DNA of 60,294 nucleotides, from the IMG/VR virus record IMGVR_UViG_3300030328_000938, positions 1 to 60,294 of that record; one strand, given 5' to 3'. The position numbers were made by a program, and so were the translations under genes. Positions 337 through 6,054 of the stretch are shown here, piece by piece. How positions within the stretch are numbered: position 1 is the stretch's first letter; each line of letters starts with the position of its first letter. Source of the DNA: a virus. The notes below the pieces were generated by a model. It ran no database searches, was not told where the DNA came from, and was given only the letters and a program-made list of their open reading frames with translations.

Positions 337-502
337 CTTTGCTCTCCTCGTTTTCAAATACCATTTTTACTGCATTAGTAGTGTTGTAAGCACTCTGTAT
401 GTACACTTTGGTGTATTTAGTTAAGTTATTAGCTTTTAGAAAAGACTTCGGTAAAGTAATCCTTCCTCTTTCATCAATATTACACTCAGCTATCCACATC
501 AT
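311..502 (-). CDS. Small SpoVT/AbrB-like DNA-binding protein
   Basis: A 63-residue protein whose N-terminus, AECNIDERGRITLPKSF, matches the swapped-hairpin AbrB/MazE fold (consensus D-x-x-G-R-I-x-L-P-K). Such proteins dimerise and bind DNA as repressors or antitoxins. No toxin gene is adjacent, so a phage transcription regulator is more likely than an antitoxin. The C-terminus is charged and low in complexity. It overlaps the start of the annealing-protein gene (26 bases) and the end of the 74-residue gene upstream, so it belongs to the same leftward operon. Confidence 0.7.
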   Translation of the reverse strand: MMWIAECNIDERGRITLPKSFLKANNLTKYTKVYIQSAYNTTNAVKMVFENEESKDANKENKE

Positions 503-710
503 CTTTCTTCTTCTCCTTTTTCAATGTAAACTGATACATCCAAGCAGAGACTAGTTTTCTAGCCATATGTTTATCTACTCCCATTTCTTCTATTATGAAA
601 TCAGGTGCTTGAAACATATTTATACTTCCTGACTCTCTTAACTCATCCAAAAAGGGAAAAGCCTCTTCTGCTAGTTTGTCAAATAATACATCATGTTCTG
701 TTGTTGCCAC
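486..710 (-). CDS. Conserved small phage protein, unknown function
   Basis: A 74-residue acidic protein starting at GTG (GTGGCAACAACAGAACATG) behind GGAGG. The body reads SINMFQAPDFIIEEMG followed by ARKLVSAWMYQF and a lysine-rich tail. This arrangement (Asn-Met-Phe, a short amphipathic helix, then a helix ending in WM) is one I associate with small hypothetical proteins of many tailed phages, with no known function. It overlaps both neighbours, which supports expression in the early operon. Confidence 0.6.
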   Translation of the reverse strand: MATTEHDVLFDKLAEEAFPFLDELRESGSINMFQAPDFIIEEMGVDKHMARKLVSAWMYQFTLKKEKKKDDVDS

Positions 711-1907: not shown

Positions 1908-2458
1908 ACCTGAAATCCTCCTGAAGACTCAACAAACAATCTCCATCTCTTAGCTACATCAGTTTTAAATGGATAACTAGCCATAAAGTTTCTAGTTTTA
2001 CCTGTTCCCTTACAAGGGTTACAAGATTTCTTATCACTATTATGTATTCCAGTTCCATTGCAACCAACACACTCTTCATCTTCAAGTTTGTCTTGCCATT
2101 CTTTATAGCTCTTCTCGTACTTCTCTAAAGTTCCATCTTCCTCTGCCTTCCTTAGTAGTCTCGCCATTCTTATTGCAGTAGTCTTAGGCACTTTAATACC
2201 ATCATTAGACATACCTGCATCAATGTGTTTATCTGACATTACATTAAGACACACATCGACTGTATAAGACCACAATCCTCTCCACCACCAGACATTACTT
2301 CTCCAATAGTCTCCGGGGACTGCTTCCTCATACGCTGACACTCTTGCCCAATGGTCTTCTTGCTCATGTTTCTTGAGCTTATTGAAGTTATCAGGATAGA
2401 GTGGTTTCTCGATACCTAAGTGATTGATTGGACTTAATCCATACACATCATATCCCAT
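1901..2458 (-). CDS. Phage protein with a DnaJ-type zinc motif
   Basis: A 185-residue protein. The first half is tryptophan-rich (GDYWRSNVWWWRGLW). A later CVGCNGTG...CNPCKGTGKT pair forms a DnaJ-like CxxCxGxG zinc-binding unit at about residues 131-155. The C-terminus (RLFVESSGGFQVW) is the ending I associate with a family of uncharacterised early phage proteins. There is no J domain, so this is not a chaperone. The start is supported by AGGAGGATACT just upstream of ATG. It is probably a single-zinc binding module for protein or nucleic acid; the exact role is unknown. Confidence 0.6.
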   Translation of the reverse strand: MGYDVYGLSPINHLGIEKPLYPDNFNKLKKHEQEDHWARVSAYEEAVPGDYWRSNVWWWRGLWSYTVDVCLNVMSDKHIDAGMSNDGIKVPKTTAIRMARLLRKAEEDGTLEKYEKSYKEWQDKLEDEECVGCNGTGIHNSDKKSCNPCKGTGKTRNFMASYPFKTDVAKRWRLFVESSGGFQVW

Positions 2459-2724
2459 AGTATCCTCCTTATCTTGCTTGTTATAGGAAATTTAGAGGCA
2501 ACTACAATCTTCGGTGACTCCCATCGTGTTAGCCACATTACTGCGCAGTTGGGAACGAACTTGTTATCATTGCCTCTTTAAAGTTTTGGGGGAACTGGTT
2601 CGCCAACCATATACATTTGTCATCCTCTTCTCTTTTGTTCCAAGTATTCTCAGCTAATGCTTCATTGTCTACTCTTTACTCAAGTCAAACTTTGACTAAT
2701 TCTGTCCCCCCATTTACAGGAGTT
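2459..2724 (-). other. 266-base gene-free spacer with a nested inverted repeat and possible gene remnants
   Basis: The outer arms AGAGGCAA (2494-2501) and TTGCCTCT (2570-2577) are perfect over 8 bases, and a second pair TCCCA/TGGGA lies inside. Between the inner arms on the minus strand sit CTGCGCAG and GTGGCTAACAC, each able to form a small hairpin. A minus-strand frame from 2675 to 2538 stays open for 45 codons with protein-like composition (WNKREEDDKCIWLANQF) but has no usable start. This could be a decayed gene. I see no complete gene in this spacer. Confidence 0.35.
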
Positions 2725-3083: not shown

Positions 3084-3668
3084 TTAACTTTCCAACTCTT
3101 TCATATTGCAATAGTCGTAATAACTACCTTTGTCTGTCCAAACATCCCAATATCCAACCCATCTAACTAGTTCAGGGAAGCGTACAAATCCGTACATATC
3201 AGGGTCTTCGTTCATCCAAGAGTTCTTGATATATTGTTTCAACTTCAATCCTGTATCAACAGGACTAACGCTATTAATATCTCCAACTTTTAGTAGTTTA
3301 TTTTGATTTCTGTCAATTCTAAGGTCAGCCTTCCAACCACAGTTTAATGTTATGTGTAGAGGTGTATCAGAGTTGTGCTGAAATTTATACTGTTTACCCA
3401 CAATACAATCTCTAGTCAAGTGTCCTTTAAGGTCTTTAGTGTTAATATAACAAGCATAAGCACTCATCTCTTCTAATGCAACCATTCCATAAATGAATAC
3501 TTCTTGCAATGGTTTACCTTCACCCCACTTATAACCTTCACCTATCTCAGGTGGTAATATAGGTTCTCTCTCCCCACTTCCTGCGTAATCATATGTCACA
3601 TGAAGTCCATTATGTGGGAAGAATATACCAGAGTATAATTGATTTAAATCTTTTCCATGTATATCCAT
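3084..3668 (-). CDS. Hypothetical early phage protein (194 residues)
   Basis: A soluble mixed-fold protein I do not recognise. It starts MDIHGKDLNQLYSG behind GAGG, with its ATG overlapping the stop of the tiny basic gene upstream (TAATG). Aromatic residues are abundant at the end (RWVGYWDVWTDKGSYYDYC). There are several cysteines but no paired CxxC motif. There are no catalytic signatures I can name. Length, frame and translational coupling make it a real gene. Confidence 0.6.
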   Translation of the reverse strand: MDIHGKDLNQLYSGIFFPHNGLHVTYDYAGSGEREPILPPEIGEGYKWGEGKPLQEVFIYGMVALEEMSAYACYINTKDLKGHLTRDCIVGKQYKFQHNSDTPLHITLNCGWKADLRIDRNQNKLLKVGDINSVSPVDTGLKLKQYIKNSWMNEDPDMYGFVRFPELVRWVGYWDVWTDKGSYYDYCNMKELES

Positions 3669-3772
3669 TATTTCCTCGCCTCTTTCTTTCTCTTCTTCTC
3701 TTCACGCTTTCTTCTTTTAATGTCCTCGTTCTTCTTTCGTCTATTTATTTTATTTTGTTTAGCCTGTCTCAT
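3668..3772 (-). CDS. Tiny, strongly basic peptide gene
   Basis: A 34-residue frame, MRQAKQNKINRRKKNED followed by an almost pure Lys/Arg/Glu tail. It starts behind AGGAGA and its stop overlaps the next ATG (TAATG), so it is positioned as the first gene after the leftward promoter at 3881-3889. It may be a nucleic-acid-binding peptide or a leader that couples translation into the 194-residue gene. The composition alone cannot distinguish these. Confidence 0.45.
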   Translation of the reverse strand: MRQAKQNKINRRKKNEDIKRRKREEKKRKKEARK

Positions 3773-3880
3773 TTGTCTCTCCTGTTAGTTAATGTTTAAA
3801 AGTATGTGGTCACTCTTTCTCGCTTGATTAGAGTTGTCTATCACAGACTTCAATAGATTATGGATAGCGGTTTTGAACAC

Positions 3881-3889
3881 ATTATACCA
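3881..3889 (-). promoter_or_regulatory. Leftward extended -10 promoter
   Basis: On the minus strand the sequence reads TGGTATAAT: a perfect TATAAT with the TG extension one base upstream, as in extended -10 sigma-70-type promoters that need little -35 contact. I see no good -35 element at the normal distance. Transcripts would start near 3874 and read into the tiny basic gene and the 194-residue gene. It sits just downstream, in transcription order, of the structured region. Confidence 0.5.
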
Positions 3890-3905
3890 TAAGTACACCA
3901 AGATA

Positions 3906-3984
3906 ACCATAATTCTGAGGAGCTACCTACTGATTAGAATGGCATCTTCTTGCCGATGCCCACAAGGTTCTTCAACCTCATGGT
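3906..3984 (-). other. Compact four-way-junction (cloverleaf-like) element
   Basis: Four perfect stems fit in 79 bases: ACCAT/ATGGT closing (3906-3910 with 3980-3984), ATTCT/AGAAT (3912-3916 with 3936-3940), GGCATC/GATGCC (3941-3946 with 3955-3960) and AGGTT/AACCT (3965-3969 with 3974-3978). The second and third stems abut with no unpaired base. The last stem has only a four-base loop and no T-loop or anticodon-loop consensus, so it is not an ordinary tRNA on either strand. It could be an RNA structure or a DNA cruciform. Confidence 0.45.
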
Positions 3985-4352
3985 AAGATTCCGTCCTATG
4001 CCTTGCAACGCCTTAACACATTGCTAAGATGACATACGATGACCTGATAAGTCTTGAGTGCTTTCATACCTTTAGGGATAGCAGTAAGACCACTCTATGA
4101 TACTACATCATATCGTATTTGTATCGAAGTCTAGGATAACTTCATAGATACAGTCAAATGTACTCAACTAAGTTTAGTTTAGTTATTTAACGGTTTCCTC
4201 TATTGATGATTAGTCACTATCTACTCAAAGTGACCACAATTAAAGTTTAGGCTCTGCATATCTATCACAAGAAGGATAAGATAGAAGGAACAGATGCGGA
4301 GTCCCTACAGAGCCTTTAAGTCGCATTGCCAGTTTCTGTCTCCCGGTACTGG
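3906..4352 (-). ncRNA. Candidate structured non-coding RNA region
   Basis: About 530 bases (3773-4304) have no convincing gene, and the stretch 3906-4352 is full of paired arms: the four-way junction at 3906-3984, a possible pseudoknot at 4051-4095, GTATCGAAGT with ACTTC and GATAC at 4121-4151, GTCACT/AGTGAC at 4213-4234, AGGCTCTG/CAGAGCCT at 4249-4315 and CCAGT/ACTGG at 4329-4352. The flanking genes read leftward, so a minus-strand RNA is assumed; a TATACT box at 4363-4368 could start it. Size and density recall the large ornate phage RNAs GOLLD and ROOL, but I cannot match either. It overlaps the 34-residue frame at 4305-4409. Confidence 0.3.
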
Positions 4353-4409
4353 TAACCCATAGAGTATAATTTCTTTTAATTTTGGTAAATACTCATTTAA
4401 CCTCACCAT
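4305..4409 (-). CDS. Tiny putative gene coupled to an upstream membrane peptide
   Basis: A 34-residue frame, MVRLNEYLPKLKEIILYG then LPVPGDRNWQCDLKAL. Its ATG overlaps the TGA of the upstream membrane peptide, which would give translational coupling. Against it, the 3-prime end runs into the AGGCTCTG/CAGAGCCT stem, so this DNA may be structured RNA rather than coding. No family is recognised. Confidence 0.3.
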   Translation of the reverse strand: MVRLNEYLPKLKEIILYGLPVPGDRNWQCDLKAL

Positions 4410-4507
4410 ATCTCTGGACTAGTGATTATAAGCCACCATATAAATGTAGCAAACATCATAAGTACACAAAGAAATTCACCTATAAATCTTTTGGTTGATT
4501 CTCGCAT
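4403..4507 (-). CDS. Tiny single-pass membrane peptide
   Basis: A 34-residue frame starting MRESTKRFIGEFL with one hydrophobic segment (FLCVLMMFATFIWWLIIT) and a short acidic end. A GAGG sequence lies 8 bases before the ATG. It resembles the other miniature membrane proteins of this phage in size and layout. It is probably real but its function is unknown. Confidence 0.4.
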   Translation of the reverse strand: MRESTKRFIGEFLCVLMMFATFIWWLIITSPEIW

Positions 4508-4564: not shown

Positions 4565-4801
4565 CTACTCTGCCAAGAATGACTCTAGGATTAAACTCCC
4601 TTCATCATCTGTTATACAGAGCATAGCCTTTAGTTTATCGTAAGAGACATCTAGCATTTCAGATGCTTTACTACACGCTTTAGATGAATTAGATGCCTTA
4701 ACAAAGCCACCAAATCTCACCTTGCGTGAGGTATTCATTCCATGTTCACCATACAGTAATGATGTACTAGGAACTTCAACCAATATCATATACTTGTGCA
4801 T
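4565..4801 (-). CDS. Small early protein, unknown function
   Basis: A 78-residue protein. I place the start at MHKYMILVEVPS because AGGAGG lies at the right distance before it, while the ATG ten codons upstream has no ribosome site. The body has a beta-like start followed by RKVRFGGFVKASNSSKACSK and two helices (MLDVSYDKLKAML, EGSLILESF). The layout (short strand, F-V-x-A-x-s-s-x-x-A, helix) is seen in small phage proteins of unknown role. It is the second gene of the leftward operon. Confidence 0.55.
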   Translation of the reverse strand: MHKYMILVEVPSTSLLYGEHGMNTSRKVRFGGFVKASNSSKACSKASEMLDVSYDKLKAMLCITDDEGSLILESFLAE

Positions 4802-5069
4802 ACGATACCTCCTGTTCTGTTGTTGATTCATTCGTTATTTTACAACATACAAGAGTATTATAAGTTAATGCCCATGTTATCCCAATAGAACTATATATAA
4901 ATGGGAGTGAGTGAGCGTATATGTATCATAATTGTACCACTTTATACAAATATACGACTTTATATAAATATATGTTAATTGTACTACTTAATTAATAAAT
5001 CAAGGTAGGAAAGTGGATACATTGCATACCCACTCTCCCCTGAAGACTCCTTAGTATCTTCAATAAACC
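4802..5069. promoter_or_regulatory. AT-rich intergenic region with direct repeats and two hairpins
   Basis: 268 bases without a gene. Three imperfect copies of a TAATTGTACYACTTTATA-like element start at 4929, 4947 and 4976, with cores GTACCACTT, ATACGACTT and GTACTACTT. Nearby on the minus strand are several TATAAA-like boxes. Two hairpins follow the stop of the first early gene: TGAAGA/TCTTCA (5041-5062) and AGTGGATA/TACCCACT with one wobble (5012-5034). The hairpins may end or slow the first early transcript, and the repeats may be an operator, promoter array or origin iterons. These roles are inference. Confidence 0.4.
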
Positions 5070-5530: not shown

Positions 5531-5560
5531 TTGTAAATAACCTGGGCATAGGTATATATT
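5531..5560 (+). promoter_or_regulatory. Rightward sigma-70-like promoter for the packaging/virion block
   Basis: TTGTAA (5531-5536) is followed after 16-18 bases by the overlapping boxes TATATA and TATATT (5553-5560), 20-25 bases before the first rightward ATG at 5585. It lies in the only divergent intergenic region of the map (5412-5584), so it is the natural start of the 48-kb rightward unit. I found no equally good leftward promoter in the same gap. Confidence 0.5.
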
Positions 5561-5584: not shown

Positions 5585-5755
5585 ATGACAATTACATCAA
5601 AACAGTTAACAGGAAATGAAGCCTTTACAGGAGTAGCTAGAACAGAGCATGATAATGCTATGAGGGAAAAGGAAAAATTGATTGCAGAGCTTGAAGAAGT
5701 GAAAGCAAAAGTGGATGCGAAGTCTAAAAAGAAAAGTAAGCAAAAGAAAAAGTAA
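5585..5755 (+). CDS. Small charged protein opening the rightward block
   Basis: A 56-residue protein behind GGAGG (TTGGAGGAATAATATTATG). The N-terminus is MTITSKQLTGNEAF. The rest is one charged helix (REKEKLIAELEEVKAK) ending in a lysine tail (KSKKKSKQKKK). It is probably a coiled-coil or nucleic-acid-associated protein. No family is recognised. It is followed by 50 bases of almost pure A/T. Confidence 0.55.
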   Translation: MTITSKQLTGNEAFTGVARTEHDNAMREKEKLIAELEEVKAKVDAKSKKKSKQKKK

Positions 5756-5808: not shown

Positions 5809-6054
5809 ATGAATCTTATGGCAGTTGAAATACCTCATTTATCTAATTTCCCATTGGAAGAACAAGAGAGAATCTTGGAAAAGATGGTAACAAACTATGC
5901 TTCTGAAATGATAGCTCAAGAAAAGGCTGAAAAAGAAAAATGGACTTATATAGAAATTGATGGAGAAACTTTTCGGATACATGATAAGGTAAATGATTTA
6001 CTAAATAGCGTTTATCGGATGTATGAAAAGGAAGTCAAAAAAGAGAAGAGTTAA
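5809..6054 (+). CDS. Hypothetical protein before the small terminase
   Basis: An 81-residue acidic protein. The start MNLMAVEIPHLSNF has no strong ribosome site, and the second methionine (5818) is an alternative start. The body is helical (LEEQERILEKMVTNYASEMI) with a short strand pair (WTYIEIDGETFRIHD) and a helical end. Its stop overlaps the next ATG (TAATG), so it is coupled to the small terminase-like gene. The function is unknown. Confidence 0.55.
   Translation: MNLMAVEIPHLSNFPLEEQERILEKMVTNYASEMIAQEKAEKEKWTYIEIDGETFRIHDKVNDLLNSVYRMYEKEVKKEKS

Follow-up and report, generated by a model that had tools for sequence, protein, structure and literature searches.

A large structured non-coding RNA of a new family at the GOLLD cassette site of related phages

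Inspection of the genome of a marine phage (the window analysed is the whole 60,294-base virus record) showed the minus strand between positions 4238 and 3805 to encode a large structured non-coding phage RNA that represents a new family, here named RNA-1. It lies at the site at which sister phages carry a GOLLD cassette. This is supported by covariation among homologues, by the absence of any conserved reading frame found in them and by the lack of a match in Rfam. A first-pass annotation of the region had also proposed a new large structured RNA on the minus strand, which these results bear out, although the extent it gave (about 580 bases, 3773-4352) needs correction: the actual core is ∼434 nt long and is accompanied by a 67-nt upstream element (4315-4249), while the 580-base segment also extends over the ribosome-binding site that belongs to the following gene and over a portion of a possible 34-aa ORF. 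For the complete explanation, in which the new RNA would be transcribed within an operon, processed and have a GOLLD-like role as a particle, we estimate a probability of about 0.62.

The genes to the left of ∼5440 are on the minus strand and indicate leftward transcription; rightward genes begin at 5585 and include the terminase genes at 6054 and 8565. A terminator-like hairpin was predicted at 5007-5039 (minus strand), between gene 5411-5070 and the operon bearing the RNA. The first gene of this operon codes for an 88-aa protein (4565-4831, minus strand) and is followed, directly upstream of the RNA region, by a gene for a 34-aa membrane protein (4403-4507, minus strand) with a homologue in L002, the closest contig; small membrane ORFs resembling its product are present in L004 and L128 as well. 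The first gene on the 3′ side of the RNA codes for a very basic 34-aa protein (3668-3772, minus strand). As anticipated in the first-pass annotation, no convincing gene was found between ORF 4403-4507 and position 3772. The largest minus-strand ORFs inside this stretch code for only 41 and 34 aa, and tblastn searches with the translations of ORFs 3785-3910 and 4305-4409 found no relatives in L128 or L129. The ATG of the 34-aa ORF 4305-4409 (minus strand) overlaps the stop codon of the membrane-protein gene (ATGGTGA), and the ORF extends into the upstream element; it is missing from L002, and whether it is real is unknown. A tRNA search of the window itself called none.

Related phages were gathered by IMG/VR scans for the terminase, plus an alignment of the Cas4-like exonuclease. 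Single-sequence protein scans with the neighbouring genes 3084-3668 and 831-1577 gave no matches. The L002 contig (94% identity in the terminase) is truncated within the RNA region. A full-length homologue of RNA-1 was found in L128 (70% identity in Cas4) and another in L180 (40% in Cas4), the latter with a two-sequence profile (E 1e-24). A pattern for the 3′-end detected two further contigs: L208, a near-identical copy of the L180 type, and L210, one of the L128 type. The homologues thus represent two further lineages in four contigs, 50-54% identical to the window, with core lengths across members of 434-477 nt. The genes located 3′ of RNA-1 differ among the window, L128 and L180. A blastn search of 50,697 phage records with the region and two homologues gave no match, and none of the 30 matches to an RNA-1 pattern in bacterial genomes was confirmed by the profile.

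A covariation test on relatives, which the first-pass annotation had recommended together with a scan of Rfam covariance models, was performed on sequence-only MAFFT alignments of the three lineages; these replaced a structure-informed three-sequence alignment that was partly misaligned. The consensus energy was -220 to -232, versus -144 to -152 after the columns were shuffled (z -11.0 to -11.7). Between 30 and 38 pairs had changed on both sides and yet could pair in all three lineages, a number that fell to 0-5 when the partner was slid by 1-3 columns. A separate MAFFT alignment analysed with RNAalifold showed both-side changes in 29 of 84 pairs. With only three lineages available, shuffling and sliding took the place of R-scape in the assessment of covariation. 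No conserved reading frame, one of the coding signatures that would count against an RNA, was found among the homologues. Folded alone, the window sequence was only mildly unusual (-161.5 kcal/mol and z -1.95 for the minus strand; z -1.1 for the plus strand); the L128 and L180 RNAs, folded singly, were 4.3 and 3.3 standard deviations below their shuffles. Counting hairpins in the window would therefore not prove an RNA by itself, while the comparative evidence does.

The RNA-1 core (3805-4238, minus strand; profile match 4239-3795) is closed by a long-range stem, P1, whose 5′ strand occupies 4238-4227 (the UGUGGUCACUUU side) and whose 3′ strand occupies 3816-3805 (the AGAGUGACCACA side). P1 has 12 bp in the window and 13 pairs in the consensus helix; five pairs changed on both sides with pairing kept in the three lineages. 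It provides the clearest case of covariation, reading GUGGUCACUUU/AGAGUGACCAC in the window versus GAGAGUUGCUUU/AGAGCAACUCUC in L128. The perfect stem pairs noticed at first inspection are real: a 10-bp pair within P1 (3805-3814 with 4229-4238, the halves lying 414 nt apart) and another at 4249-4256 with 4308-4315 are examples. Inside P1, a second long-range helix (3986-4198, minus strand) joins the conserved 5′ motif ACCGUU (4198-4189) to a GGACGG motif (3995-3986); all eight pairs are kept in the three lineages, two of them changed on both sides. The 3′ domain (3858-3983, minus strand), defined by a covariance model (R1) and the helix table, comprises a hairpin (3983-3960), a GGCAUC/GGUGU helix (3959-3955 with 3899-3895), a long arm (3948-3900) and a final hairpin (3892-3858).

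The 67-nt segment just upstream of the core, element A (4249-4315, minus strand), forms a three-way junction with loops CUCCGCAUC and, in the second hairpin, AUCCUUCUUG. It is kept in L002, where the loops are conserved and one hairpin has three of its six pairs changed on both sides. Many family members also have, between early genes and on the sense strand, a small hairpin with the loop GACUCCGCAU whose stem varies but still pairs (window 4249-4315, minus strand; L077 ∼435-520, minus strand; L116, L117, L075, L188, L202 and others). The hairpin next to it lies on its 3′ side in the window and L002, and on its 5′ side in several others. A scan with the element A pattern found several loci within the family, the remaining matches being apparently due to chance in unrelated contexts.

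No Rfam family was detected in the window at gathering thresholds, and permissive thresholds revealed no relevant one. In particular, the GOLLD (RF02032) and ROOL models gave no match at E≤10 in the window, nor at E≤5 in L128 or L180, in agreement with the initial view that the RNA is recognisable as neither. The comparison with GOLLD was nonetheless apt. In sister phages, marine like the host of the window RNA, the equivalent slot of the operon holds a conserved, ORF-poor region of ∼800 nt, which in L137, L175, L144, L135, L134, L141 and L147 matches Rfam GOLLD with E values from 4e-16 to 4e-55. Only the L175 copy (2205-2619, plus strand) exceeds the curated Rfam cut-off; the other six fall below it, and would therefore be missed by default Rfam annotation. 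GOLLD phages often carry a tRNA nearby, and a tRNA-like sequence was seen just upstream of GOLLD in L175 (1664-1735).

RNA-3, the third type of large, conserved and structured RNA, occupies the slot in L179 (2942-3618), L174 (4304-4858) and L167 (1703-2377), in all cases on the plus strand, and its consensus fold is 13.6 standard deviations below column shuffles (z -13.6). A partial copy was seen in L186 (1214-1321). RNA-3 resembles RNA-1 in locus, strand, similar size, strong structure and the absence of a relevant Rfam match (E≤0.5), but its closing stem and loops are different. L179 had been considered a remote RNA-1 on the basis of a match to R1 (E 2.6; 0.11 unfiltered), a proposal rejected once the region proved to be RNA-3. 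The GOLLD, RNA-1 and RNA-3 profiles did not cross-match, and no contig carries two of the types. Two closer relatives of the window, L004 and L129, have neither RNA-1 nor GOLLD at the slot, where a tRNA(CAU)-like sequence is found together with a small ORF. The RNA thus looks like an exchangeable accessory module, and its job is dispensable in some phages. The tRNA(CAU)-like sequence (L129 ∼3477-3577, plus strand; the minus-strand equivalent in L004) has an enlarged D-loop and sits at the position of element A in the window; ARAGORN called no tRNA in the relatives, this sequence included.

A promoter-like motif, ATAACATGGGCA, at 4869-4880 (minus strand) lies in the region where the leftward transcript containing the RNA probably begins. 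The window has only two exact copies of ATAACMTGGGCA, at 4869-4880 (minus strand) and 5537-5548 (plus strand), which lie ahead of the two divergent operons at a distance of 37-38 nt from the first start codon of each, and this element is probably an early promoter or operator of the phage family. A motif of the ATAACATGGG[CG]A type was found 60-2083 nt upstream, on the same strand as the RNA, at all 18 loci examined, so that one type of upstream motif is common to GOLLD, RNA-1 and RNA-3 loci; the scan tolerated up to two mismatches, and lone weak matches may be due to chance. L208 lacks the gene and the hairpin that separate the motif from the RNA in L180, but retains the RNA, which begins ∼60 nt past the motif; like the differing genes on the 3′ side, this speaks for an RNA that does not depend on its neighbours. 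The idea that RNA-1 is framed by a promoter of its own found no support, since promoter-like matches in the region numbered 10 versus 12.1 in shuffles. The extended -10 sequence earlier pointed out at ∼3889-3881 (minus strand) is indeed present, but a conserved RNA-1 hairpin encloses it, and neither L128 nor L180 preserves it. More likely, transcription starts at the operon promoter near 4870 and the RNA is excised from a polycistronic product.

The main rival to a free RNA is that RNA-1 acts in cis on its operon, as an antitermination or attenuation element or as a riboswitch-like leader. Its location within the operon, immediately ahead of the next gene's ribosome-binding site, would suit such a role, as would the element A-type hairpins that precede genes in several relatives. 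The downstream genes, however, are not the same in the three RNA-1 lineages, which makes this less likely; in addition, ∼430 nt under a single closing stem is large for a leader, and GOLLD, which uses this slot in sister phages, is a free-standing class of RNA. We therefore regard a cis-acting element as unlikely, although it deserves consideration. That RNA-1 is an extremely diverged GOLLD seems less probable still. The operon slot, strand and upstream motif are common to both, and the short string CGUUAAAUAA occurs in the 5′ part of each, but the failure of RNA-1 to match the Rfam model contrasts with the E values of 4e-16 to 4e-55 for the seven sister RNAs, the nucleotide profiles and the RNA-1 covariance model do not cross-match (R1 found no confident match in GOLLD loci), and RNA-1 is about half as long.

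The large size and patchy distribution of RNA-1 might also recall a ribozyme, an intron or the guide or RNA component of a mobile element. At E≤10, however, it matched none of the ribozyme families of Rfam, introns and HEARO included, none of the ORFs alongside was recognised as an endonuclease, a reverse transcriptase or TnpB-like, and RNA-1 splits no gene, all of which leaves very little room for this explanation. Least credible is that the hairpins arose by chance or conceal an undetected gene. The weak single-sequence fold of the window is all that speaks for this, while the comparative tests, the lack of a conserved frame and the maintenance of homologues of ∼52% identity by compensatory changes speak against it; unless the alignment is wrong, the covariation in P1 has already refuted it.

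RNA-1, as a member of a new RNA family, meets the general criteria of a large ornate phage RNA: it spans several hundred nucleotides, has many covarying helices and no conserved ORF, and resides in a phage genome. GOLLD is likewise a large multi-helix phage RNA in which no conserved ORF was found; it has a variable 5′ region and a conserved 3′ region, the latter being the basis of the Rfam model, and forms an RNA-only cage of 14 subunits. Within this phage group the two RNAs have in common the operon slot, the strand and the promoter-like motif, and RNA-1 meets the criterion of a phage or prophage location, since phage family and locus are shared with GOLLD. It does not meet the length criterion (∼434 nt versus ∼800 nt), has no detectable similarity to GOLLD in sequence or covariance model, and has conserved loops of its own. 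ROOL is similar in its size class (∼500-660 nt), phage origin, ornate secondary structure and unknown function, but its Rfam model does not match RNA-1. OLE RNA is also a large ornate RNA located within an operon; it shows no match to RNA-1 and belongs to chromosomes of Gram-positive extremophiles (PMC12054373), not being known from phages.

GOLLD and ROOL assemble RNA-only cages, and GOLLD increases during lysis (PMC12286853); ROOL can rival 16S rRNA in abundance (PMC12286853; PMC5643018). By analogy, and in the absence of transcript data, RNA-1 would be transcribed within the leftward operon from the promoter near 4870, and host RNases would probably free it from the polycistronic RNA; the 12-bp P1 stem presumably closes and protects its ends. 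The RNA so released would be a stable, abundant structural RNA made during infection, as GOLLD is for its phage, and would fold into an RNA-only, probably homo-oligomeric particle. Because the two RNAs share an operon slot, the role of RNA-1 is most likely GOLLD-like; this presumed equivalence rests on position, without any sequence relation to GOLLD or ROOL.

To our knowledge, few phage or bacterial RNAs so large and elaborate have been described, and the functions of GOLLD and ROOL remain unknown. A more tentative proposal, which we consider possible but do not favour, is that three or more unrelated large RNAs, GOLLD, RNA-1 and RNA-3 among them, interchange at the cassette site, each forming an RNA-only particle and all performing one common job. 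If this were true, RNA-1 and RNA-3 would each be a new class of natural RNA nanostructure, and it would be convergence, not sequence, that defines the job. Both RNAs offer new, smaller targets for cryo-EM. The exchange observed at the slot suggests that several unrelated large RNAs may serve one unknown job in these phages, and the GOLLD exchange locus provides a direct handle on that function, since whatever RNA-1, RNA-3 and GOLLD have in common in operon, timing, neighbours and assembly must be what counts.
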